Assembly: GCF_009498035.1 (NCBI RefSeq) | Contig: NZ_CP034550.1 | Location: forward strand, 10,230,001-10,294,000 | DNA: 64,000 bases | Direction of reading: 5' to 3' | Origin: Saccharothrix syringae | GTDB lineage: Bacteria; Actinomycetota; Actinomycetes; Mycobacteriales; Pseudonocardiaceae | Shown: piece after piece, positions 1 to 31,348 of the stretch | Layout: each line of letters opens with the position of its first letter | Numbering within the stretch: position 1 is the first letter of the stretch | Notes under the pieces: model-generated | What the model was told of the DNA's origin: nothing | Database searches by the model: none | Seen by the model: the letters and a program-made list of their open reading frames with translations, nothing else | Program-made: the position numbers and the translations under genes

Positions 1-1173
1 CGCTTCAAGAAGCGAGCCCTAGACGGACACCGAGGACTCAAGAAGACCAACCGGTGGGCAGGGGGACAGCCACCATACGGCTATCAGGTGATCTCGAACC
101 CAACCGGCGGCAAGATCCTTGCCATTGACCCAGTGTCGTCCGAGGCAGTTCGGTTTGCGGGTCGAATGGTCTTGCAGGACAAGAGCCTGTGGGAGATCGC
201 AACGGCGCTAACTGAAGCCGGGTTCCCAACTCCCGCCCGCCACGTAGCGAACCAGCAAAACGCCGACAGTCGCAGTCGCCGTAAGACCAAGGTCTCCGAC
301 GATTGGAACCAGTCGAGCATCGGAAAGATCCTCAGGTCTCCCGCGACTATGGGCCTGAAGCTGGAAGGCCGCACCGCCAAAGAGAAGCGCGTGGTCCGGG
401 GCGAGGATGGCCTACCAATCCGGATGGCCGATGCTTTGTTCAGCGATGAGGACTGGACGAGCATTCAAGAGAAACTCACTAAGCGATCTCGAACCAAAGA
501 ACGGACTCACGGGGCGGCACCCCTACTCGGCGTGGCCTACTGTGGCGGCTGCCAAGAAAGGCTGTACCGCGCGGTCACCACGTCCAAGGGAATTCAGTAC
601 AGCTACTACCGCTGTATCCCCATGTCGGGAAAGCCGCGGTGCGAGGGCCACACGTTCAAGGAAGCGGAAGTGACCACCAACCTCGAAGAGGCCATTTCGA
701 TTCACCTTGCGGACATCCCGGTGATGCGTCGGACGTTCGTTCCCGGAGAGGATCACACGGCCGAACTGGACGCCGTCGTCAAAGCAATGGCGGAAGTTCG
801 AGAAGAGAAGGACCTCGGACTGTATGACTACCCCGGTGGCACGGAGGAGTACAAGGGACGGCTTTCAGCACTGGCCGCACAGCGAAAGATCCTGGCCGCA
901 CTTCCGCACCGTCCCGCAAGGTGGATTGAAGAACCAACCGGAGAGACCTACGCGCAGGCTTACTTCCGAATGACTCCGGACGAACGGCGCATGTTGCTCC
1001 TGGGCGCAGACGTCAAGTTCTACATCAAGCCGAGTGGCCAGCCCTGGCAATACGCGCTTGTGACCCCCAAAGAGATCACTAGCCGCGTCCAAACCGCAGG
1101 CCGTGAGATTGAGCCATCCGGCGAACAGCAGGAGATCCCGAACCCGACTTACATCATGGTCGATCAGAAATAG
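1..1173 (+). CDS. Large serine recombinase (integrase), C-terminal part; 5' end outside window
   Basis: Site-specific recombinase that would integrate and excise the element beginning here. The reading frame is open from base 1, so the N-terminal resolvase domain with the catalytic serine is off the window. What remains starts in the 'recombinase' domain (GGQPPYGYQ, the usual junction in large serine integrases), followed by a zinc-ribbon region around 540-660 with CGGCQ and a later C...C pair, and then a helical, probably coiled-coil C-terminal part. The family acts without host factors on short att sites, normally next to the gene. It is followed by a strong hairpin terminator and a 980-bp gene-poor gap. 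Its codon use and lower G+C match genes to 10.6 kb and not the chromosome further right, which makes it the likely mobility gene of that block. Confidence 0.9.
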   Translation, partial: RFKKRALDGHRGLKKTNRWAGGQPPYGYQVISNPTGGKILAIDPVSSEAVRFAGRMVLQDKSLWEIATALTEAGFPTPARHVANQQNADSRSRRKTKVSDDWNQSSIGKILRSPATMGLKLEGRTAKEKRVVRGEDGLPIRMADALFSDEDWTSIQEKLTKRSRTKERTHGAAPLLGVAYCGGCQERLYRAVTTSKGIQYSYYRCIPMSGKPRCEGHTFKEAEVTTNLEEAISIHLADIPVMRRTFVPGEDHTAELDAVVKAMAEVREEKDLGLYDYPGGTEEYKGRLSALAAQRKILAALPHRPARWIEEPTGETYAQAYFRMTPDERRMLLLGADVKFYIKPSGQPWQYALVTPKEITSRVQTAGREIEPSGEQQEIPNPTYIMVDQK

Positions 1174-2508: not shown

Positions 2509-3303
2509 ATGACCAAGGCAAACAGCGACTACGCGCAGACGGACCTGATCGTCAAGCTGATCAAGGATCTCGGGAAGGTCGTCAACATCCCTGCCGCGCT
2601 TGCGGCTGAGTCCAAGCTCATTGAAGACCTGCGGCGTGATGAGTTCGGCGCTGGGGCTGTTGTCGCATCCGCACGAACCGACCTGTTGAGCGCACCCACA
2701 CCGGCCGACTACCTCAAGGCACGGGAAGCACTCTCTACCGCCCTCGTGACGACATTCGGCACTCAGTCGGACGCCTTCCGCGCAGCCGAAGCAGACGCCC
2801 TGTACCGGCGCGCTGTCGGTTCGCTCTACGACCACTCGAACGAACTTCAGTCGGCCCTTTCCGAGCGGTTCAACGACTTGGTTGCTGCGCACAGCCTGAA
2901 TGACGCTGCCGCGTCGCTCCCAGATTTCGCGGACCCGTACCTGAACCTGTTGAACGTCTCCCCGGCGCAGGCGAGCGCCGTAGCCACGTGGCAGAACGTC
3001 ATTGGTGAGCTGAGCGCGGTTTGGTCCGCGTACATCCGACTTGCCCGCCACCTCGGGCACACGTTCGGAGGCAGTGAGGCCAGTGAAAATCTTGAACTCG
3101 CATTCGTGCTGTTCGACATCCCCGCGTTCGACGTGGCTCGGAGTGCGGCCGTGTTGCTGGCGTCCTGGAAGGGCGGCACCGATGCCGCCAAGCGATACGG
3201 CCCGTTGCTGCCGTTCGTCGCGGGTCCGTTGTCCGGCGCTGCGCTTCACCTGAAGCCGATTTCCGATGCTGACGCTCTGTGGAGAGCGGTTCAGGGGATC
3301 TGA
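2509..3303 (+). CDS. Hypothetical protein (264 aa) of the mobile element
   Basis: Not recognised. ATG at 2509 with a strong AGGAG nine bases upstream. The protein is largely helical and acidic in its first 200 residues, with no clear signal peptide, no Cys clusters and no catalytic motif. A moderately hydrophobic stretch near residues 215-245 (AKRYGPLLPFVAGPLSG) is too weak to call a membrane segment. The regular heptad-like Ala/Leu pattern suggests a helical bundle. It lies between small zinc-ribbon genes and an HNH endonuclease in one direction, in a position where actinophage genomes carry lineage-specific early or accessory proteins. Confidence 0.7.
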   Translation: MTKANSDYAQTDLIVKLIKDLGKVVNIPAALAAESKLIEDLRRDEFGAGAVVASARTDLLSAPTPADYLKAREALSTALVTTFGTQSDAFRAAEADALYRRAVGSLYDHSNELQSALSERFNDLVAAHSLNDAAASLPDFADPYLNLLNVSPAQASAVATWQNVIGELSAVWSAYIRLARHLGHTFGGSEASENLELAFVLFDIPAFDVARSAAVLLASWKGGTDAAKRYGPLLPFVAGPLSGAALHLKPISDADALWRAVQGI

Positions 3304-3371
3304 CGAGCCACAAGACGAGAAGGCGGCCGGGGCTGATCACCCCGGCTTTCGTTTACCCGAGGAGAGAACTC

Positions 3372-3947
3372 ATGAGCACTAAGACGTGTACCAAGTGCCG
3401 CACACTGAAGCCACTAGACGACTTCTACCGCGATTCGTCGCGCTCCGACGGTCGCAGCCACCAATGCAAGGAATGCAAGCGCCCGAAGGTGCGCGCAACC
3501 GTCCGTGAGTGGAAGGCCGCCAACCGGCAAGCGACGCTTGCACAGAAGGCGCGTTACCGCTCCCGCCACAAGGGCCGCATTGCGATCGACAACGCCATTA
3601 GGCAGGCGAAGCGCACCGCTGATCGACTCGGCGTGAACACAGAGCCGTACACCGTGGCGGAATTGGTCGAGGCATGGGGAGAGCGCCACGAATGGCACTG
3701 TGTGTACTGCGGTACCGCCGACGCCCTAAGCATTGACCACGTTCACCCCATGAACCGAGGCGGCGTCAACGCGCTGGCGAACATCGTCCCGGCGTGCGTC
3801 GCGTGTAACCAGTCCAAGCGCTCAAAGCCTGTTGGCGAATTCCTGGCCGGAAAGCATGTCCCCGAAGTCCACGGACCGGGCCGATACGCGCACGCCGTCA
3901 ACGTGCTGCACCGCGCTGCATCCCCGTTCCTGGACTTCCAGGAGTAG
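3372..3947 (+). CDS. HNH endonuclease (phage type)
   Basis: The chosen ATG at 3372 follows GGAGAGAAC; an upstream in-frame start would overlap the previous gene. The 191-aa product opens with a zinc-knuckle segment (CTKC...CKEC within residues 6-32), then a basic helix, and ends with the HNH fold: CVYCG, the catalytic DH (SIDHVHP), the asparagine region (GGVNALANIVPACVACN) and a closing KR-rich helix. HNH proteins of this form lie next to the terminase in cos-type tailed phages, where they nick DNA during packaging. The terminase small-subunit gene follows in the same direction after about 550 bp, which supports a packaging role over a homing role. Confidence 0.85.
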   Translation: MSTKTCTKCRTLKPLDDFYRDSSRSDGRSHQCKECKRPKVRATVREWKAANRQATLAQKARYRSRHKGRIAIDNAIRQAKRTADRLGVNTEPYTVAELVEAWGERHEWHCVYCGTADALSIDHVHPMNRGGVNALANIVPACVACNQSKRSKPVGEFLAGKHVPEVHGPGRYAHAVNVLHRAASPFLDFQE

Positions 3948-4501
3948 GGCCGCAGACAAGACGCGCTCACAGCCACCGAGCGCCTTACGGGGTGCCTGCG
4001 GTCCGGCCGCACCTCGGGAGCGGCTAGGCGTGGCGTACAGCCCCGTTTCCGGGGCTTTCCTGTGGCTAGCTACGTGCGAGCGGCACCCCTGGCCGCTCGG
4101 GTGTGCGTGGGGAGCTGCTCCCCCGCGACCGGGCAAGCAGGCCCGGCAGGACAGAGGCACGGGGGCACCCCTGTTTTAGTGGGGGGTACCTGTCGCGCAT
4201 TTACGCAGGTAGGTGGCTTGTAGGCGCTTCCGCGGAATTGGCTTCCGCTACGGGTACAGGGTATCTGACCTGCGCTTACGCGGACACGTGTGGTCGCATA
4301 CCCCCACGGGGGATACCCCTACCCCGGCCACCCCCACCGGTACGTATAGCGGTCCTGCGCCTTTATGCGTCACATCGGCTCTCTGCGTTTTTCCACACCG
4401 CCCTAAGCGGCGGTTTCGTCTGCGTGCCTGCCGTTGCCCCTGGTCGGCTGTCACCCGAACGGCACCAAAACACCCACTGATCGACTACGAAAGGACCAGA
4501 A
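3948..4501. other. Non-coding gap between HNH endonuclease and terminase small subunit (candidate packaging site)
   Basis: No convincing gene. Open frames here have poor codon use and no ribosome-binding sites. The stretch holds several inverted repeats, for example a CCGCAG...CTGCGG pair at about 3951-4002 and a C5/G5 hairpin at about 4301-4316. In cos phages and in satellites that borrow phage packaging, the cos site lies beside the HNH/terS genes; this is the only large gap there. That is inference from position alone. Confidence 0.35.
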
Positions 4502-4903
4502 ATGACCACCTCTCCGCGTCCACCGCGCGGTCTGGGAACCAGCGGTAAGCGACTCTGGCGCGAAATCACCGACGCCGAGACGGGTTGGGAGTTGCGGCCC
4601 GATGAGTTCCGGATGCTTGAGGATGCGTGCCGAGAGGCAGACCTCATTGACCGCCTTGAATCGGCCCTAGCTACGGCCGAGCTGATCGTCCGAGGTTCGA
4701 TGGGGCAGCCTGCCCCGTCACCTCTCCTGACCGAAGTCCGTCAGCACAGAACCGTATTGGCGAACCTCCTGGGGAAACTGAAGCTGAGTGAGCCCGTGGA
4801 AGACGAGACGACTTCCGATGATTCGACAGGCGTTGTGGTGCCCTACAGCCGTTCGGAGGCTGGCCGTATCGCCGCTAGGGCACGGTGGGGTGGTACGCGG
4901 TGA
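4502..4903 (+). CDS. Phage terminase small subunit, P27-like
   Basis: DNA-recognition subunit of a phage packaging motor. The 133-aa protein has the features of actinobacterial P27-family small terminases: an N-terminal PRGLGTSGKRLWREI segment, a central helical stretch (LRPDEFRMLEDACREADLIDRLE), a G-rich turn before PSPLLTEVRQHRTVLANLLGKLKL, and a C-terminal tail ending SEAGRIAARARWGG. ATG at 4502 follows GAAAGGACC. The stop overlaps the next start (GTGA at 4900), so the two are translationally coupled. A large subunit, portal and capsid normally follow; here they do not, which is the main reason to suspect a satellite or a decayed prophage. Confidence 0.75.
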   Translation: MTTSPRPPRGLGTSGKRLWREITDAETGWELRPDEFRMLEDACREADLIDRLESALATAELIVRGSMGQPAPSPLLTEVRQHRTVLANLLGKLKLSEPVEDETTSDDSTGVVVPYSRSEAGRIAARARWGGTR

Positions 4904-5226
4904 GCCGATCTCGAAAGCGTTCCCGCCTTTCAGTAGGTCCGGCCACTGGTATTGACATCCGCGCACAGGTGCGTCACAAACTGACCGCCCGACTCGCACG
5001 GGCTCGGGCTGGGTGGGCTTACCAATCACGGGCTAGTGAGATGACCGCCGACGAACACGCGGCGGCTGTCGAAGAACTGATCTACAACGCGCAGGGTCGC
5101 CTGTTGGAAGCCCTCACTTCCGGGGAACGGGTGGAGCTTCCCGGTTGGATGCTCAATGACTGGTTTCCGGTCGAGGTCAGCCGTACGTATTGGCTGATGC
5201 CCGACGGCTCGGTTCGTAGGATGTGA
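4900..5226 (+). CDS. Hypothetical protein (108 aa), coupled to terminase small subunit
   Basis: Not recognised. The GTG at 4900 overlaps the terminase stop (GTGA). The protein has a basic N-terminus (SRSRKRSR), a helical middle with a MTADEHAAAVEELIYNAQ segment, and a C-terminal part rich in aromatic residues (GWMLNDWFPVEVSRTYWLM). No Cys, no membrane segment. Its stop overlaps the start of the following gene in the same way, so three genes from 4502 to 5900 form one tightly coupled operon. Confidence 0.7.
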   Translation: MSRSRKRSRLSVGPATGIDIRAQVRHKLTARLARARAGWAYQSRASEMTADEHAAAVEELIYNAQGRLLEALTSGERVELPGWMLNDWFPVEVSRTYWLMPDGSVRRM

Positions 5227-5900
5227 CCGGAATGGGCCTGAAAGAGTCCTACGCGCGGGCTGCCAGCCGCGCACCGGGAGCCACCGCGCACACCGACGCC
5301 GTTGTGAAAGCTCTCCTTGAAGCCGTCCAGCCGGACGGGACAGCACCGTTCCCGGAGGTCTTCCCGTTCACTCGGGCTGACACCGACGTAGAGGTTCAGC
5401 GGCTTGTCAGGGCTGGACTTCTGGCGGTCACGCCGAACGGTGTCCAGCTCGTTCCACCAGCCCCATCTAGGCCGTCTGAGAGGCCCGTAGAGCAGCCGAA
5501 GTCGTCAGCGCCTAAGCGGCCTGACGCGAAGCCGCCCGCAACCCGTAGGGAGCCACCTCGGGCGAAGGTGCCCACACAGGCCGGGGTGGACCAGGCCGAA
5601 CACATGCGCCGGTTGCGCTGGTCGAAGGTGCTCAAGGAAACGCCGCAGGCTCACCACTTGGCGCTAGCGCTTCACCTGCAAATGGGATCGAAGCACGGAA
5701 AACGTTTCGGTGAAACGCCGTTGAATGTGTCCGCGGTTCTCCTATCGAAATTGACGGGAATGTCCGAGCGAACCGTTAAGCGGCATATTCCGCTACTGGT
5801 CGAGAGCGGCTTTTACCGCCGAGTGGACACCGGTAAGGGAGGCTACTCGGGCAAGGCGTCTGCGGCGGCTTGGTTGCCGACGCTGCCCGACTTCGAGTGA
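5223..5900 (+). CDS. Winged-helix DNA-binding protein of the element
   Basis: GTG at 5223 overlaps the preceding stop (GTGA); ATG at 5232 is an alternative start. The 225-aa product has an N-terminal region with its own small helical domain, a Pro/Arg-rich linker around residues 80-125, and a C-terminal winged helix (residues about 145-215: LNVSAVLLSKLTGMSERTVKRHIPLLVESGFYRR, with SERTVKRHI as recognition helix). This domain resembles helix-turn-helix proteins in actinobacterial integrative elements that control replication or excision. Directly downstream lie inverted copies of a TGTCAGATTGGCACA-type sequence, which may be its binding sites. The specific role is inferred. Confidence 0.65.
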   Translation: MTGMGLKESYARAASRAPGATAHTDAVVKALLEAVQPDGTAPFPEVFPFTRADTDVEVQRLVRAGLLAVTPNGVQLVPPAPSRPSERPVEQPKSSAPKRPDAKPPATRREPPRAKVPTQAGVDQAEHMRRLRWSKVLKETPQAHHLALALHLQMGSKHGKRFGETPLNVSAVLLSKLTGMSERTVKRHIPLLVESGFYRRVDTGKGGYSGKASAAAWLPTLPDFE

Positions 5901-6108: not shown

Positions 6109-6768
6109 ATGGACTTCCACAAGATCGCTGGTAAGACCATCCAGCGCCCGAACTTCGAAGATGAGGACTTGACGGAGGACTCACCAGCGTTCCGAGGGGA
6201 ATTCGACTTCGACTCGGCTCTACTGAGCGACGGAGACCAGGAAGGCGTTACCGGTGAGGGGTCGCTCTTTACCTCCCTGGTGAAGTCGGTTGACCTGTCG
6301 AAGTCCCGTCTTACTCCGCTCACGCTCTCCGATGTGCGGTTTGACGACGTGAGCCTTTCCAACGCCGTGTTGTCGGAGACCACTGCACGGCGGGTCGAGT
6401 TCCAGCGGTGCCAGGCCATCGGCCTACAGGCCGGGCTGGTCCAGGCCCAGGACGTCTACGCGGAAGACTGCCGATTCGACTACGCGACACTTCGGTTCGA
6501 TCAGGTGAAGAACGCCGTTGCGTTCCGGCGTTGCTCGTTCCGGGAGACCGTCCTTGTGGGTGACCTGTCGAACGTCGTGTTTGACGATTGCGAGTTGATC
6601 GAAACGGAATTCGAGGCGACTCGGGCCGTTGGCTGCGATCTCACAGAGTCGAGGTTGATCGGCGTTCGCGGATTGCTGACGTTGCGTGGCGCGAGGCTTA
6701 GCGCCGATCAGGCCAGCTCCCTTGCCAGTCAGATTGCCTCGGAAGCTGGCCTGACCATCGTCCGCTAG
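6109..6768 (+). CDS. Pentapeptide-repeat protein (219 aa), possible self-protection protein of the RiPP cassette
   Basis: ATG at 6109. From about residue 60 on, the protein shows the five-residue periodicity of right-handed quadrilateral beta-helices (L/F at the centre every fifth residue, for example DLSKSRLTPL, DVRFDDVSLSNAVL, DCRFDYATLRFD, RCSFRETVLVGDLSNVVFDDCEL, DLTESRLIGVRG). The first 55 residues are acidic and not in the repeat. Known relatives include McbG, AlbG and MfpA/Qnr, which protect DNA gyrase from peptide or drug poisons. The gene converges on the cyclophane precursor gene and ends 15 bases from it. A self-immunity role is an inference from this neighbourhood; the sequence alone shows only the fold. 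Confidence 0.75.
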   Translation: MDFHKIAGKTIQRPNFEDEDLTEDSPAFRGEFDFDSALLSDGDQEGVTGEGSLFTSLVKSVDLSKSRLTPLTLSDVRFDDVSLSNAVLSETTARRVEFQRCQAIGLQAGLVQAQDVYAEDCRFDYATLRFDQVKNAVAFRRCSFRETVLVGDLSNVVFDDCELIETEFEATRAVGCDLTESRLIGVRGLLTLRGARLSADQASSLASQIASEAGLTIVR

Positions 6769-6783
6769 CTCATGATCCGCTAG

Positions 6784-6969
6784 CTACTTGTTCTTCCAGT
6801 TGTCCCACGTGGGGCGGTTGTCGAACCCGCCGTTTCCGGTTGCGTTGTCCCACGTGGGTTCGTTGTTGAACGAGCTGACCACTACGGGAGCGCCGCCCAC
6901 TCGGGTGAGCAGGGCGGTGAATCCCTCGTTACGCGCTTGAATCCGCTCTGCCAACGGTGTCGGGCTCAA
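6784..6969 (-). CDS. amcA: Multiple-cyclophane RiPP precursor peptide (AmcA-like, 61 aa)
   Basis: Substrate peptide for the radical SAM enzyme encoded just upstream. Reading from the TTG at 6969, residues 1-30 form a helical leader with LAERIQ, and residues 31-61 are a short core holding five three-residue motifs that begin with an aromatic residue and end with Asn: FNN (34-36), WDN (40-42), FDN (49-51), WDN (55-57) and WKN (58-60), then a terminal Lys. PTWDN occurs twice. Aromatic-X-Asn is the motif in which SPASM radical SAM enzymes join the aromatic ring to the beta-carbon of the third residue. The start lies inside the maturase 3' end (41-base overlap) behind an AAGGGG; TTG at 6972 is equally possible. 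Export or protease genes are not seen nearby. Confidence 0.8.
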   Translation of the reverse strand: MSPTPLAERIQARNEGFTALLTRVGGAPVVVSSFNNEPTWDNATGNGGFDNRPTWDNWKNK

Positions 6970-8059
6970 CAATCTTAAGCACCCCTTCAAGTAATGCAAT
7001 CTTGCTGTTTCGACAGAAGTCGGTTTCCGTTCCGTCCATCCGGCCGTGTTCGAAGTAGCGGTTAGCCGGTTGACCACCTCCGCAGAAGTCGAAGTAGGGA
7101 CAGGTCTTCCGACACGTGTCCACGCCGTGTACGAATTCGGCCACCCACGGAACGTCCGCGCCACGCGAAATGATTTCGTCTAGGGTGGTGTCCAATACGT
7201 TGCCGCTTGCGAAGCTGCCTTGCGCGTTGCCGAAACCGGCCAACTCAGGGGAGATGAGCGTCACCGATCCGTCGTAGGCCACGGTCGGCAACGGGTCGAT
7301 AAACGGCGGCTGGCGGATCGGCTCACTGCCACCCTTTAGAACCGCGTCCGCATACGCGAGGGTCCGCCCTAGCTCCCGCAGACGGACCGCCGGGTTCTCA
7401 CTCCAAGCCGCCATCAGTTCAGCCCAGAAGGCGATGACCGTTCCTCGGTCGTAGGCGTTGGTTGAGACGTTGACGCCTTCCTGTTCTTCGATGTTGACGC
7501 CCAGTTCCGACAGGCCGGTTTCAACGGCGAAGTTGTAGAGCCTGCGGGCACGTTCGGACGTCGGGTCGGACACGACCGCGATTGCGTAGACCTCGTGGCC
7601 GTGAGCGATGAGACGACGAATCCCCTGCATCGTCTTTTCGTAGGCGGGCGCTCCCTTTCGGTCCACGCGGCTAGCGTTGTCCGAAGGGCCACCGTCGATA
7701 CTGACACCGACGTACATGTTCCGTTCGGCGAAGAAGTCGCACCAGGCGTCGTCAATCAGCGTGGCGTTTGTCTGGACGCCGTGTTTCACGTCGAGCCCGG
7801 CGAACGTGTCCATTAGCCGCCCGAGGTGCGTTCTGCCGGTTGCGAGCGGTTCCCCACCGTGCCAACAGACGTCAACGGTCCCGTAGGCCGTCCAGGGCCG
7901 CACCGACTCGGCTACGGCCTGCGCCACTTCCACCGACATCCTGTTTCGCTTGTGTCGAAACGGCAGATAGCAGTAGCCGCAATCGAGGTTGCAAAGTGTC
8001 TCGGGTTGCACGATGACCGATCGCGCCGAACGGAATAGGCGCGTTTGCGGTGCACTCAC
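6929..8059 (-). CDS. amcB: Radical SAM/SPASM peptide maturase, cyclophane-forming (AmcB-like)
   Basis: Predicted to cross-link aromatic-X-Asn motifs of the adjacent precursor. The 376-aa protein has the radical SAM cluster motif CNLDCGYC (Cys 23, 27, 30), the usual glycine-rich and WHGGEPL segments of the TIM barrel (SAM binding), and a C-terminal SPASM-type cysteine set (316, 320, 326, 349; CRKTCPYFDFCGGG...FC) for auxiliary iron-sulfur clusters. Length and motifs fit the peptide-modifying branch and not the anaerobic sulfatase maturases. GTG at 8059 has AGGGGGA upstream, 15 bases after the preceding gene's stop. The assignment to the AmcB subgroup rests on the precursor type and is from memory of the family. 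Confidence 0.85.
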   Translation of the reverse strand: MSAPQTRLFRSARSVIVQPETLCNLDCGYCYLPFRHKRNRMSVEVAQAVAESVRPWTAYGTVDVCWHGGEPLATGRTHLGRLMDTFAGLDVKHGVQTNATLIDDAWCDFFAERNMYVGVSIDGGPSDNASRVDRKGAPAYEKTMQGIRRLIAHGHEVYAIAVVSDPTSERARRLYNFAVETGLSELGVNIEEQEGVNVSTNAYDRGTVIAFWAELMAAWSENPAVRLRELGRTLAYADAVLKGGSEPIRQPPFIDPLPTVAYDGSVTLISPELAGFGNAQGSFASGNVLDTTLDEIISRGADVPWVAEFVHGVDTCRKTCPYFDFCGGGQPANRYFEHGRMDGTETDFCRNSKIALLEGVLKIVEPDTVGRADSSA

Positions 8060-8073
8060 TTGGTCCCCCTCGT

Positions 8074-8304
8074 TCAGGCTGTCCGGGTGAGGTTGAATCC
8101 GACAGGCAAACGGTGTCGGCCCGCAGACTTGACCGCCGGTATTTCTTCGGTCGGGCTGTCCACGCGCCGTAGTACCGGCAAGATCAGAGTCGGTTCTGTC
8201 GTAAGTCGTCGGTTCTCGGCATGGATCAGGTACGGGCGGACCATTGCGGGTGCGTCCGGATCGTCGGCCCAGTAGATCCGGTAAGGCGACTCTGACTCAG
8301 TCAC
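8074..8304 (-). CDS. Small conserved-looking protein (76 aa) upstream of the maturase
   Basis: Not recognised. GTG at 8304 overlaps the stop of the membrane-protein gene before it. The 76-residue product begins TESESPYRIYWADDPDAPAM, continues with two beta-strand-like stretches (RPYLIHAENRR, PTLILPVLRRV) and ends basic. Its overlap with its neighbour and short distance to the maturase GTG make it part of the RiPP operon. It is shorter than a RiPP recognition element normally is and no clear winged-helix pattern is visible, so a precursor-binding role is only a possibility. Confidence 0.6.
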   Translation of the reverse strand: MTESESPYRIYWADDPDAPAMVRPYLIHAENRRLTTEPTLILPVLRRVDSPTEEIPAVKSAGRHRLPVGFNLTRTA

Positions 8305-8503
8305 TCTGCCCCCTAGGCCGCTTCCTTTTCTGTGGGTGGCGTTTCCAAGTCCAGTCGCGGAGGTACCGAATCGTGGTTGCGTCCTTGATTCGCTCCCAGA
8401 GCAGCACACCGAGGATGAACGCGACCGCCGCCAATGCAAAGCCAAGGCCGATCCACTGATCGGTGCCCCACTCGTAGCCGAAGTAGTTCGCGGCGATGGT
8501 CAT
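8297..8503 (-). CDS. Small single-pass membrane protein (68 aa) in the RiPP operon
   Basis: ATG at 8503 overlaps the end of the upstream gene. One strong hydrophobic helix (about residues 16-35, WIGLGFALAAVAFILGVLLW) is followed by a highly basic tail (KRHPQKRKRPRG), so the C-terminus should be cytoplasmic. Its stop overlaps the start of the 76-aa gene. A membrane anchor, immunity or transport helper would be plausible in a peptide cassette, but nothing in the sequence decides among these. Confidence 0.65.
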   Translation of the reverse strand: MTIAANYFGYEWGTDQWIGLGFALAAVAFILGVLLWERIKDATTIRYLRDWTWKRHPQKRKRPRGQSD

Positions 8504-8811
8504 ATCCGGTCCCCCGACGCCGAAACGATCTGCGGCCAGCCGAGCACAGCCGAGACCACTTCGCGGGCGTGTCCTTCCGCCCGTTCTTTGGGCAGACCGC
8601 CGACCAGTCGAACGGCGCTGGCCTGATCCTCGCCGTAGACGCGGATAAGTTCTTGGATGTCCCACCGGAGGCGCACGAACCCGAGTTCGTCAGGGTTGCT
8701 CGGATCGTCTCCGTACGGAACGGCGATGAACCCGCTTTTGAGTAGCCGCTGAAGCGCCAACATCGTTTCGACCTGTTCGGCGGTCGCCGTCTCAGCGTTG
8801 CTGTTGCTCAT
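8500..8811 (-). CDS. Small protein (103 aa), first gene of the RiPP operon
   Basis: Not recognised. ATG at 8811 with GGAAGG upstream; longer in-frame starts run into the divergent promoter region. The protein is mostly helical, acidic, without Cys or membrane segments (LALQRLLKSGFIAVPYGDD, LRWDIQELIRVYGEDQASAV, HAREVVSAVLGWPQIV). It overlaps the next gene, and five genes in a row to 6784 share a strand with overlaps or 15-base gaps, so they are probably one operon read away from the XRE regulator. Confidence 0.65.
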   Translation of the reverse strand: MSNSNAETATAEQVETMLALQRLLKSGFIAVPYGDDPSNPDELGFVRLRWDIQELIRVYGEDQASAVRLVGGLPKERAEGHAREVVSAVLGWPQIVSASGDRI

Positions 8812-8974
8812 GTCGGTGGGCCTTCCGGTGGACCGTGGTACGGCCACCCCCACCCCGGCCGAGGGGGAAGCCCACAGGGCGGGGGCGACCTACCGTTGTT
8901 CCTACCGGCCGCACTCCCGATTTATGCTGCTAGGCGCGTTTACAAGAGTTGACAACGCGGACCGGGGGTTAGCC
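8812..8974. promoter_or_regulatory. Divergent promoter region between the RiPP operon and its XRE regulator
   Basis: About 160 bp between divergent starts. On the plus strand TTGACA occurs at 8949-8954, inside GTTGACAAC, a short palindrome-like sequence. On the minus strand TTGTAA is followed after about 16 bases by CATAAA, a plausible -35/-10 pair for the RiPP operon. Overlap of the two signals would let the XRE protein control both. Confidence 0.45.
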
Positions 8975-10072
8975 GTGTCGGAGCTAAGCGACGCTCTGAG
9001 AGCAGCGCGTGAGACAACCGGGCTGAGCCTCACTCGAATGGCACAACTCACCCACTACAGCAAGCCCTATCTGAGTTTGATCGAGACCGGGAAGCGTCGC
9101 CCTGTTCCGGAAGTCGTCACGGCCTACGAACAGGTTCTAGGCGTGCCGATCGGCAGTGACCCGCTTCGCCGCGCCCATGAGTGGCTTGTCTCGGACTCTC
9201 CTACGGCCGTACAGCGCCGTTCAGGCCGCAGGGTGGGTGACTCCCTGGCTGACGCCCTTGACGCCCGTGTGGTCGAGCTGAGGCACCTTGACGACGTGGT
9301 CGGGAGCGCAGACCTGTTGCCCGCAGTGCGGCAGGAGCTAGCCGAGGTGGAATCGTTGGTGCGCAACGGTTCTTACACCGAACCGGTCGGGCGGAGGTTG
9401 CTCACGGCGACCGGGGAGCTTGCCCAGCTTGCCGGGTGGGTGGCGTCGGACGCGGGCAAGTACGCGGACGCCCAGCGGCTCTACCTCGGGGGCGTGGATG
9501 CGGCAGAGGAAGCGGGCAACGATTCCCTTGCGGCACAACTGTTTTCGTCGCTGAGCTACCAGGTTGCGAACGTGGCTGACCCTCACGACGCGCTGCTCCT
9601 GGCACGCACTGCGGCCAAGGGTGCCCGGAGCGCTACGCCCGTGGTTCGGGCGCTGCTGTTGGAACGGGTGGCATGGGCCAGCGCCAAGACCGGGGACCGT
9701 GACGCGACCCTCCGCGCGCTGGACGCGGTAGACGACACGTACGAACAGCGCTCCCCCGGCATCGAAGAACCCGAGTGGGTCTATTGGCTCAACAGAGCCG
9801 AAATCGACGTCATGGCCGGACGTTGCATGATCGAGTTGGGCACACCCGACAGGGCCGAACCCCTGCTGTCCGCCGCCGTTGCCACCTACCCCGAGGAGCA
9901 CTCCCGAGAGGTGGCGCTCTACCTGTCGTGGCTTGCCGAGTCCTACGCCCGGACGGGGGAGCTGGACGCGGCAACGGCCACGCTCGAACGCGCCAGGAGG
10001 TTCGCGGCGCGGATGCCATCCGCGCGCACTGACGAGCGCTTCAAGACCCTTGAGGGTCTGCTTCCCTTGTGA
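8975..10072 (+). CDS. XRE-family regulator with TPR-like domain, divergent to the RiPP operon
   Basis: Transcription factor of 365 aa. Residues about 5-60 form a classical XRE helix-turn-helix (LRAARETTGLSLTRMAQLTHYSKPYLSLIETGKRRP). The remainder is a helical repeat region of tetratricopeptide type (GKYADAQRLYLGGVDAAEEAG, DRDATLRALDAVDDTYE, GELDAATATLERARRFA), as in actinobacterial peptide-sensing or developmental regulators of the same outline. GTG at 8975 is chosen because it follows a GGGGG ribosome site and starts right before the HTH; the longer frame upstream passes through the promoter. Its position opposite the maturase operon suggests it controls the cassette. It overlaps the convergent 201-aa gene at the 3' end by 32 bases. 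Confidence 0.85.
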   Translation: MSELSDALRAARETTGLSLTRMAQLTHYSKPYLSLIETGKRRPVPEVVTAYEQVLGVPIGSDPLRRAHEWLVSDSPTAVQRRSGRRVGDSLADALDARVVELRHLDDVVGSADLLPAVRQELAEVESLVRNGSYTEPVGRRLLTATGELAQLAGWVASDAGKYADAQRLYLGGVDAAEEAGNDSLAAQLFSSLSYQVANVADPHDALLLARTAAKGARSATPVVRALLLERVAWASAKTGDRDATLRALDAVDDTYEQRSPGIEEPEWVYWLNRAEIDVMAGRCMIELGTPDRAEPLLSAAVATYPEEHSREVALYLSWLAESYARTGELDAATATLERARRFAARMPSARTDERFKTLEGLLPL

Positions 10073-10650: not shown

Positions 10651-11460
10651 CTACGCCTTCGGCCAGTCGAACGTCACCGTCACGGGCGCGTGATCGGACC
10701 ATCGTTCCTGGTAGGTGGCTGCGCGCTCTACCACGGCAGTGGTCGCCGTGCGTGCGATACCCTCGGTTGTACAAACCAGATCGATCCGCCAGCCGGAGTC
10801 GCTGTCGAACGCCTTGCCGCGGTAGGACCACCACGTGTACGGCCCGGCCACGTCCGGGTGCAGCGACCGCACCACGTCCACGTACCGCGCCTCGCCGAAC
10901 ACCCGGTCCAGCCAGGCCCGCTCCTCCGGCAGGAACCCGGACGACTTCTGGTTGGTCTTCCACGCCTTCAGGTCCTCGGGCCGGTGCGCGATGTTCCAGT
11001 CGCCGCACACCAGCACCTCCCGCCCACCGGCGGCGGCCTTGTCGCGCAGCTCCACCAGGTACGGCAGGAACGCGGCCATGAACCGCTCCTTCTCCTCCTG
11101 CCGCGGCGTGCCCACGTCACCGCTGGGCAGGTACAGCGAGGCCACCACCACGTCCGGCAGCTCGACCTCGACGTACCGCCCGGACCGCTCGAACTCGGGC
11201 GCGCCGAAGCCGACCCGGACGGCCCGCGGCTCGGCCCGCGTCAGCACCGCGACGCCGTTGCGCCCCTTGACCTCGCAGTGCGCGTGCGCCACGTGCCACC
11301 CGTCGGGCGAGCGCACCTCCTCGGGCAGCTGCCCCGGCTCCGCGCGCACCTCCTGCAGGCACACCACGTCCGCGGTGGTGGCGGCGAGCCACTCGACGTA
11401 GCCCTTCTTCGCGGCCGCGCGCAGCCCGTTGACGTTGACGGTGGAGACGGTCAGCACCAC
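10651..11460 (-). CDS. xthA: Exodeoxyribonuclease III (AP endonuclease)
   Basis: Repairs abasic sites and removes blocked 3' ends in base-excision repair. The 269-aa protein is full length for the ExoIII/EEP family: STVNVNGLRAA, LQEVRAEPGQLPEEV with the metal-binding Glu, YLPSGD, CGDWNIAHRPEDLKAWKTNQ, GRVFGEARYVDVVR-type segment, WWSYRGKAFDSDSGWRIDLV and the final SDHAPVTV with the catalytic Asp-His. It is last in a minus-strand run after the 75-aa and SH3-like genes (gaps of four to six bases). It is the first typical high-G+C chromosomal gene right of the inserted element and its 3' end appears intact. Confidence 0.95.
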   Translation of the reverse strand: MVLTVSTVNVNGLRAAAKKGYVEWLAATTADVVCLQEVRAEPGQLPEEVRSPDGWHVAHAHCEVKGRNGVAVLTRAEPRAVRVGFGAPEFERSGRYVEVELPDVVVASLYLPSGDVGTPRQEEKERFMAAFLPYLVELRDKAAAGGREVLVCGDWNIAHRPEDLKAWKTNQKSSGFLPEERAWLDRVFGEARYVDVVRSLHPDVAGPYTWWSYRGKAFDSDSGWRIDLVCTTEGIARTATTAVVERAATYQERWSDHAPVTVTFDWPKA

Positions 11461-16083: not shown

Positions 16084-16130
16084 GGGCGCAGCGTGCGGCA
16101 CCCCCGGTACCCCGGCAACTCGAACCAGGC

Positions 16131-16203
16131 GGACCAGGCCGGATTCGAACCGGCGTCCTCCCTCCCGGGGGAGGGCGCGTCAACCACTGCGCTACATGGT
16201 CCC
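16131..16203 (-). tRNA. tRNA-like sequence with irregular anticodon arm (possible tRNA pseudogene)
   Basis: On the minus strand there is a clear D-arm (TAGCGCAGTGGTTGACGCGC), a perfect T-arm (GCCGG TTCGAAT CCGGC) and acceptor halves GGACCA / TGGTCC. The anticodon arm is irregular: CCTCC/GGAGG closes an 8-base loop CCCGGGAG, or CTCCC/GGGAG closes a 6-base loop. Neither has the standard 7-base loop with U33, and the spacing between acceptor and D stems is one base too long. The anticodon therefore cannot be assigned. It is either a decayed tRNA or an unusual one with an expanded loop. Confidence 0.45.
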
Positions 16204-30754: not shown

Positions 30755-31348
30755 GTGACAGTGAACATCATCGGCGAGGACTACTCGGACGCGGTCTTGA
30801 ACGGGCAGCGGTGGGAGGGCCGGTCGTTCGTCCGGTGCGACTTCACCGAGGCCGACATGCGGGGGTTGGTGACGTCGGGCTGCACGTTCACCGAGTGCAC
30901 GTTCGACCGCGCCGACCTGGGCGGGTCCGCGCACCGGGCGTCGGCGTTCCGGTCGTGCCGGTTCAAGGGCGCGGTGCTGGCTTCGGCCTCGTTCACCTCG
31001 TGCACGTGGCTGGGCTCGACGTTCGTCGACTGCGCGCTGCGGTCGATCACCCTGGAGGAGACCGATCTCACCCTCGCGAGCCTGACCGGGGCGCGCCTGC
31101 GCAAGGCCCCGCTGCGCGGCCTGCGCCTGCGCGAGGCCAACCTGGAGGACGCCGACCTGCGCGACGCGGACCTGCGCGACACCGACCTGACCGGCGCACG
31201 CCTGCGCGGCACCCTCCTGGAGGGCGCCGACCTGCGCGGCGCGCGCCTGGACCCCAACGGCCTGGTGCAGGCCACCCTGCGCGGCGCCCACGTCGACCTG
31301 GACACCGCCGTCGCCTTCGCCGCCGCCCACGGCCTGAAGATCACCTGA
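30755..31348 (+). CDS. Pentapeptide-repeat protein (197 aa)
   Basis: GTG start at 30755. From about residue 20 to the end the sequence follows the A(D/N)LXX five-residue pattern with few breaks (DFTEADMRGLVTSGC, TFDRADLGGSA, DLTLASLTGARLRKAPLRGLRLREANLEDADLRDADLRDTDL is the clearest run, here described by type). It is thus almost wholly right-handed beta-helix, 20-22 coils. Cys at regular positions (TSGCTF, TECTF, RSCRF, TSCTW, DCAL) stack in the first half. Relatives of the MfpA/Qnr type mimic DNA and bind gyrase; most others have no known role. No partner gene nearby. Confidence 0.85.
   Translation: MTVNIIGEDYSDAVLNGQRWEGRSFVRCDFTEADMRGLVTSGCTFTECTFDRADLGGSAHRASAFRSCRFKGAVLASASFTSCTWLGSTFVDCALRSITLEETDLTLASLTGARLRKAPLRGLRLREANLEDADLRDADLRDTDLTGARLRGTLLEGADLRGARLDPNGLVQATLRGAHVDLDTAVAFAAAHGLKIT

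Follow-up and report, generated by a model that had tools for sequence, protein, structure and literature searches.

A type-1 AmcA/AmcB cyclophane peptide cassette of Saccharothrix syringae and its pentapeptide-repeat partner, a predicted self-immunity protein

A 64,000-nucleotide stretch of the Saccharothrix syringae genome (contig NZ_CP034550.1, forward-strand positions 10,230,001 to 10,294,000; hereafter the window) was found to contain a type-1 AmcA/AmcB cassette for a multiple-cyclophane ribosomally synthesized and post-translationally modified peptide (RiPP), together with an adjoining gene for a pentapeptide-repeat protein (PRP). The cassette itself belongs to a known family; the part that appears to be new is the PRP partnership. 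We favour, with modest confidence, a joint reading in which the PRP confers immunity and the peptide is a probable poison of gyrase or another type II topoisomerase. The three genes concerned are as follows.

6109..6768, + strand: pentapeptide-repeat protein, predicted self-immunity; 219 amino acids, EfsQnr/AlbG-like fold
6784..6972, - strand: amcA, precursor peptide; 62 amino acids from TTG 6972; NF041721 68.7 bits, cut-off 40
6929..8059, - strand: amcB, radical SAM/SPASM cyclophane-forming maturase; 376 codons; NF041718, PF04055

The precursor and its maturase

The minus-strand frame closing at 6784 ends in SFNNEPTWDNATGNGGFDNRPTWDNWKNK, in which the motifs FNN, WDN, FDN, WDN and WKN follow one another, PTWDN occurs twice, and WDN and WKN abut, confirming the original prediction of an aromatic-X-Asn precursor beside a radical SAM/SPASM maturase. 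Assignment to the AmcA/AmcB type, also proposed there, was borne out by the NCBIfam models, as the precursor exceeded the curated cut-off of the AmcA type 1 model and the maturase that of the AmcB model (439 bits against 425), and the amcB-amcA gene order is the same as in relatives. The second-best NCBIfam match of the maturase was to the GrrM/OscB triceptide maturases (TIGR04261), at 236.2 bits against a cut-off of 310, so it is not a member of that family. AmcB carries the CX3CX2C motif CNLDCGYC (Pfam PF04055, 3.5e-15) and, by eye, C-terminal SPASM-type cysteines in CRKTCPYFDFCGGG; the Pfam SPASM model gave no match to it. ChlB (PDB 9gm3 and 9gmc), called a radical SAM multiple-cyclophane synthase in the title of a reference, matched AmcB at 3.9e-13 over residues 15-167 only.

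A 61-residue precursor starting at a TTG inside the maturase gene had been predicted. The overlap and the TTG codon stand, and the length is revised: a start at TTG 6972 (62 residues), which gives an overlap of 44 nucleotides with the 3' end of amcB, is more likely than one at TTG 6969 (61 residues), because GAAGGGG ends 9 nucleotides before it and because a TTG, preceded by AGAAGGAG, stands at the corresponding position of the Saccharothrix deserti homologue (by eye). Automated annotation had been expected to overlook such a precursor often; the NCBIfam model does detect it. The FNN-WDN-FDN-WDN-WKN core is not a product of chance. Among the 866 stop-to-stop frames of at least 30 residues in the window, amcA alone has more than two [FWY]xN motifs within 30 residues; shuffling of the whole 71-residue frame reached five motifs in 0 of 200,000 trials, and shuffling of its last 29 residues in 33 of 200,000. 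A tandem-repeat finder reported no repeat at 6700-8100, and a promoter and terminator scan found no sigma-70-type site and 5 terminator-like sites, where shuffled sequence gave 2.6 on average.

Comparison of relatives found the aromatic-X-Asn core conserved in related loci and the maturase within a cyclophane-forming family, the opposite of the two outcomes named beforehand as speaking against the prediction. Since the 32 related precursors compared had been chosen by such motifs, only the number and pattern of the motifs, and not their presence, count as a result. By eye, five [FWHY]xN motifs were counted in 6 precursors, four in 21, three in 4 and two in 1, with Asp as the middle residue in 111 of 128 motifs. 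The common layout is a tandem unit, [F/W]-D/N-N-x-P-T-W-D-N, present twice (once in a few precursors) and followed by a last Trp motif with Lys in third place in 20 precursors and Asn in 11; one precursor lacks that Trp. From these motif counts and final residues, four predicted rings are usual in the family, with an optional fifth; the earlier expectation of up to five rings thus holds for the number of motifs here and not for the family, in which four are commonest. The further proposal that the last two rings are fused back-to-back was rejected because WDN and WKN have no residue in common, which makes the predicted rings adjacent rather than fused. In the Saccharothrix deserti precursor WDD replaces one WDN, which fits the acceptance of Asn or Asp by OscB. 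In that enzyme Trp C7 is joined to the beta carbon of Asn or Asp and Phe C4 to that of Asn (PMC11002830, section 16), linkage residues that match the W/F-x-N core here as well as the WDD variant.

Pairing of the pentapeptide-repeat protein with WDN-type precursors

The PRP gene, convergent with amcA, falls outside the interval covered by the original prediction, which missed it. An AmcB-anchored survey was made of 41 loci and a further 29 AmcB copies found among 249 genomes of the family, with duplicates removed. The PRP adjoined amcA in 30 of 30 loci with a WDN-type amcA, one copy (L214) having an internal stop. Two loci added through the PRP or through a split contig (L209 and L204) brought the set to 32, of which 22 are convergent and 10 co-directional. 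Within the 41-locus set, where L116 duplicates L026 and L125 is the window itself, 18 loci have the PRP, 21 belong to a type-3 clade without it, and the remaining two are L007 and L123. At L007 (Actinokineospora iranica) amcA is cut at the contig end, and another contig of that genome, L204, carries amcA and the PRP; near L123 AmcB, amcA was not found. The foreign sequence that cuts the L007 precursor (L007:9120-9465) is transposase-like by eye. The 29 further copies comprised 17 with the PRP, one split over two contigs (G543) and 11 without it (L221-L231), none of these 11 having a WDN core; L221 encodes a 60% identical AmcB that lacks the C-terminal end, and no amcA or PRP accompanies it. 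At L199 the AmcB-anchored search missed amcA, which was found by a search near the PRP.

The 34 AmcB loci with other or unrecognised precursors comprised 22 of type 3, 8 of a third group and 4 others. A FENIPTFYNWNN-like core was read in 14 of the 22 type-3 loci, including 13 (L022 as a variant) of the 21 in the 41-locus set, whose remainder were placed by the AmcB tree; the L009 precursor matches NF041722. Tails rich in W-G-[R/K/S], for example DWGRKGGSWGKEGEFWKK, were read in five of the eight third-group loci. The PRP profile had no match in these 34 loci, nor in 49 other radical SAM loci, with the limit that it was built from type-1 locus PRPs and could be escaped by unrelated ones. One locus (L035) had been placed among 50 control loci and proved to have a type-3 core, hence the counts of 22 and 49. 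A generic pentapeptide-repeat pattern scan was dropped as unspecific in favour of the profile: at a score of at least 8 it reported 29/29 type-1, 15/21 type-3, 1/8 third-group, 2/4 other and 18/50 control loci, and at a score of at least 9, 27/29, 8/21, 0/8, 0/4 and 2/50, respectively. Four type-3 loci from Micromonosporaceae (L009, L010, L022 and L120) have much of their chromosomal neighbourhood in common and no PRP, suggesting that type 3 AmcA/AmcB may have a different role.

Distances between AmcB proteins correlate with those between their PRPs (r=0.937 over 24 loci, with duplicates L207, L216 and L217 left out; 0 of 2000 permutations as high), although linkage alone could produce such a correlation. 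It is on this point that simple hitchhiking of neighbours with no common function could draw. That explanation is very improbable indeed, given the 30 of 30 paired loci, their occurrence in both gene orientations and in at least two separate regions of the AmcB tree, and a profile that finds no PRP with the other precursor types. In the AmcB tree type 3 forms one clade and type 1 does not, with 7 label changes, a number inflated by the "other" rows L207, L216 and L217, which duplicate type-1 loci L030, L006 and L008. With the duplicates removed, one type-1 part (Nocardiopsis and kin) groups with the PRP-less third group (support 100/100), and most remaining type-1 AmcB proteins lie elsewhere, which places type 1 in two or more distinct regions of the tree; support at the deepest forks is low (39/0). 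The PRP therefore tracks precursor type and not maturase lineage.

Such tracking would also be expected of a substrate-binding protein, and the PRP might assist AmcB in biosynthesis or in regulation. The pattern of gene loss makes this improbable: genomes without AmcB retain the PRP, the largest group of them with purifying selection on it, and loci with a broken AmcB still have an open PRP frame. Across the 38 family genomes with the PRP, it stands beside AmcB in 17, is contig-split in one, adjoins an AmcB remnant in one (L209) and has no AmcB beside it in 19; none of these 19 is among the 26 genomes in which AmcB was found. Seven of the 19 lone PRPs come from a single genus and together make up the sister clade (support 100/96) of a complete locus found in the same genus; their median ratio of nonsynonymous to synonymous substitution rates (dN/dS) is 0.17 over 21 pairs. 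Two smaller groups gave values of 0.23 (3 pairs) and 0.40 (1 pair), and one lone PRP (L202) has an internal stop. At six loci amcB is broken and the PRP frame is open, whereas the only broken PRP among the 32 loci, that of L214, accompanies an AmcB that is itself broken, being without its N-terminal third. This lopsided loss, in which amcB decays and the PRP stays, is the outcome predicted by immunity.

Two lone PRPs of the subfamily are convergent with PqqE-like radical SAM/SPASM genes that encode a Cys-rich C-terminal tail, with an XRE gene nearby (L185:3813-5547; L191, PRP 4010-4669 on the - strand and radical SAM/SPASM gene 2938-4017 on the + strand). Perhaps these represent a second PRP-guarded peptide system.

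Predicted fold and proposed target

The PRP was predicted to form a right-handed square beta-helix with a C-terminal helix (residues 199-212) that aligns with the C-terminus of EfsQnr; in gyrase-protecting PRPs such a helix serves dimerisation. The structures most similar to the model are EfsQnr and AlbG, the latter at 17% identity in the structural alignment. EfsQnr was the top match by VIA-align 2 and by PDB sequence search, and the Foldseek E-value ranking placed a Clostridium PRP first and EfsQnr second. The protein is acidic (isoelectric point 4.51, net charge -14), as are its homologues (isoelectric point below 6 in 66 of 66). The square beta-helix with a C-terminal helix is common to EfsQnr, QnrB1 and MfpA, whose genes protect against drugs, lie on chromosomes or plasmids and are not known to belong to a biosynthetic cluster. 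Against the Qnr family model NF033086 the PRP scored below the curated cut-off (21.6 against 240 bits). Matches to PF13599 occur at 7 places in the 10.93 Mb Saccharothrix syringae genome (one PRP model counted), so that chance adjacency to the cassette would be rare. A second such pentapeptide-repeat region in the window (30878-31231) is unrelated to the cassette in position.

By analogy with the chemistry of the family, AmcB would link the Phe or Trp side chain of every [F/W]-x-N motif, through its ring, to the beta carbon of the residue that closes the motif. The predicted product would carry about four such three-residue rings, spread over the two tandem units, and the C-terminal W-x-N might supply a fifth. 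No leader-removal or export gene was recognised in the cassette, and these steps may be carried out by enzymes encoded elsewhere. The mature peptide would then trap gyrase or a related type II topoisomerase, and the PRP, as a DNA-mimicking, gyrase-protecting immunity protein of the EfsQnr/AlbG/MfpA kind, would free the enzyme. If the PRP is an immunity protein, the peptide therefore probably poisons one of these enzymes. The same genomic and decay evidence would also serve for a PRP that confers immunity by guarding some other DNA-associated enzyme or by sequestering the peptide; the PRP superfamily is broad, and another protein that matches the fold is HetL. A target other than gyrase is nevertheless judged unlikely, as EfsQnr and AlbG, among the three best-matching structures, are described as acting on topoisomerases, and EfsQnr is also the best PDB sequence match.

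Returning to a topoisomerase target, the proposed analogues of the toxin and immunity pair are microcin B17 with McbG, albicidin with AlbG, cystobactamid with CysO, and speirobactin with the PRP of its cluster. We take these toxins to be azole RiPPs, non-ribosomal peptide synthetase products or hybrids, and not cyclophanes. McbG, AlbG and CysO are described as playing such a protective role (PMC9886550), and the target of speirobactin is reported as proposed from the PRP in its cluster and then confirmed by resistant mutants (PMC12406682). Asking whether an AmcA peptide hits gyrase parallels the speirobactin case, in which inference from a PRP was reportedly borne out. The conserved immunity-type neighbour thus turns the "function unknown" of AmcA into one testable question, that of gyrase as the target. 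No paper on the target of AmcA peptides turned up among those listed in the literature searched, nor was a PRP partnership with cyclophane peptides met there; the primary AmcA and triceptide papers, which lay outside that search, may mention the PRP.

A broader proposal, which we regard as evenly balanced between right and wrong, is that the type-1 AmcA peptides are the first cyclophane (triceptide) RiPPs to poison type II topoisomerase, made by a compact, island-mobile module of maturase, precursor and PRP, and that the PRP outlives biosynthesis as a stand-alone resistance in related soil actinobacteria. If true, this would define a new chemical class of gyrase poisons, and a WDN-type amcA with a PRP would serve as a marker for picking clusters to express.

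Genomic island and neighbouring genes

The cassette lies on an 11.3 kb island reaching from -482 to 10793 in window coordinates (G000:C1 about 10229518-10240793). The other features of the island and of the cassette's surroundings are listed below.

1..1173, + strand: large serine recombinase, island integrase; 535 amino acids; PF00239 2.9e-13, PF07508 5.3e-12
3279..3947, + strand: HNH/endonuclease VII-like protein of the island; phrog_1035 9.5e-32
4502..4903, + strand: terminase small subunit-like protein of the island; phrog_1496 4.4e-25, no Pfam match
5223..5900, + strand: replication-initiation-like helix-turn-helix (HTH) protein of the island (weak)
8074..8304, - strand: small frame upstream of amcB; no family match
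8297..8503, - strand: small frame, 68 amino acids, hydrophobic stretch (by eye); weak Lentzea relative (L008, 40% over 45 residues)
8500..8811, - strand: conserved 103-residue frame, first of the minus-strand set; L005 72%, L008 36%
8975..10072, + strand: XRE/NsdA-type tetratricopeptide-repeat regulator, divergent from the minus-strand set; NF053720 255 bits, cut-off 75; start by eye
10781..10793, no strand: 13-bp TCGATCCGCCAGC, probable attachment core; second copy at -494 to -482

The serine recombinase gene begins 434 bp left of the window, at the left end of the island, where about 130 bp of the 3' end of the exonuclease gene are retained; that gene, exonuclease III-like, occupies 10651-11460 and contains the repeat copy at 10781 within its 3' part. 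A search of 20 genomes of the genus for the flanking genes yielded 13 others with both the phosphoesterase and the exonuclease III-like gene, separated by 121 to about 2,000 bp, against 11.8 kb here. The names metallophosphoesterase, exonuclease III-like and flavodoxin-like are presumed from Pfam matches and general knowledge of the families. In Saccharothrix deserti portions of a flavodoxin-like gene enclose the cassette, together with a prohead protease, a capsid-like gene and a serine recombinase other than that of the window. From this context and the recombinase island of Saccharothrix syringae, the amc gene set is, or once was, mobile in at least two settings. The flavodoxin-like gene is split by the cassette both in Saccharothrix deserti (L005:5048-15342) and in Lentzea nigeriaca (L008:5186-10293), with an extra flavodoxin-like copy inside.

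The serine-recombinase island, the phage-like genes beside the Saccharothrix deserti cassette and the lack of a recognised exporter could point to an addiction or defence module of the island, in which an unexported peptide would act inside the cell to kill it or its phages, with the PRP as the antidote. This is quite unlikely: PADLOC returned only weak viperin-like and HTH matches, no phage record matches AmcB, and tblastn with the two recombinases, the sole test for islands there, found neither in the stretches retrieved for the other type-1 loci. Identification as a known defence system was rejected on the same PADLOC result. Carriage of AmcB by phages or plasmids was likewise rejected, as the six matching plasmid records (31-33%) are all annotated GrrM and viral contigs gave two weak radical-SAM matches.

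Profile searches found no family for the 8500-8811 frame, also when it was taken in its longer form (8500-8853). A tRNA called by ARAGORN at 16128-16202, with an undetermined two-base anticodon, is probably spurious. The XRE/NsdA-type regulator is 88% identical to its counterpart in L005, 84% to that in L008 and 76% to that in L007.
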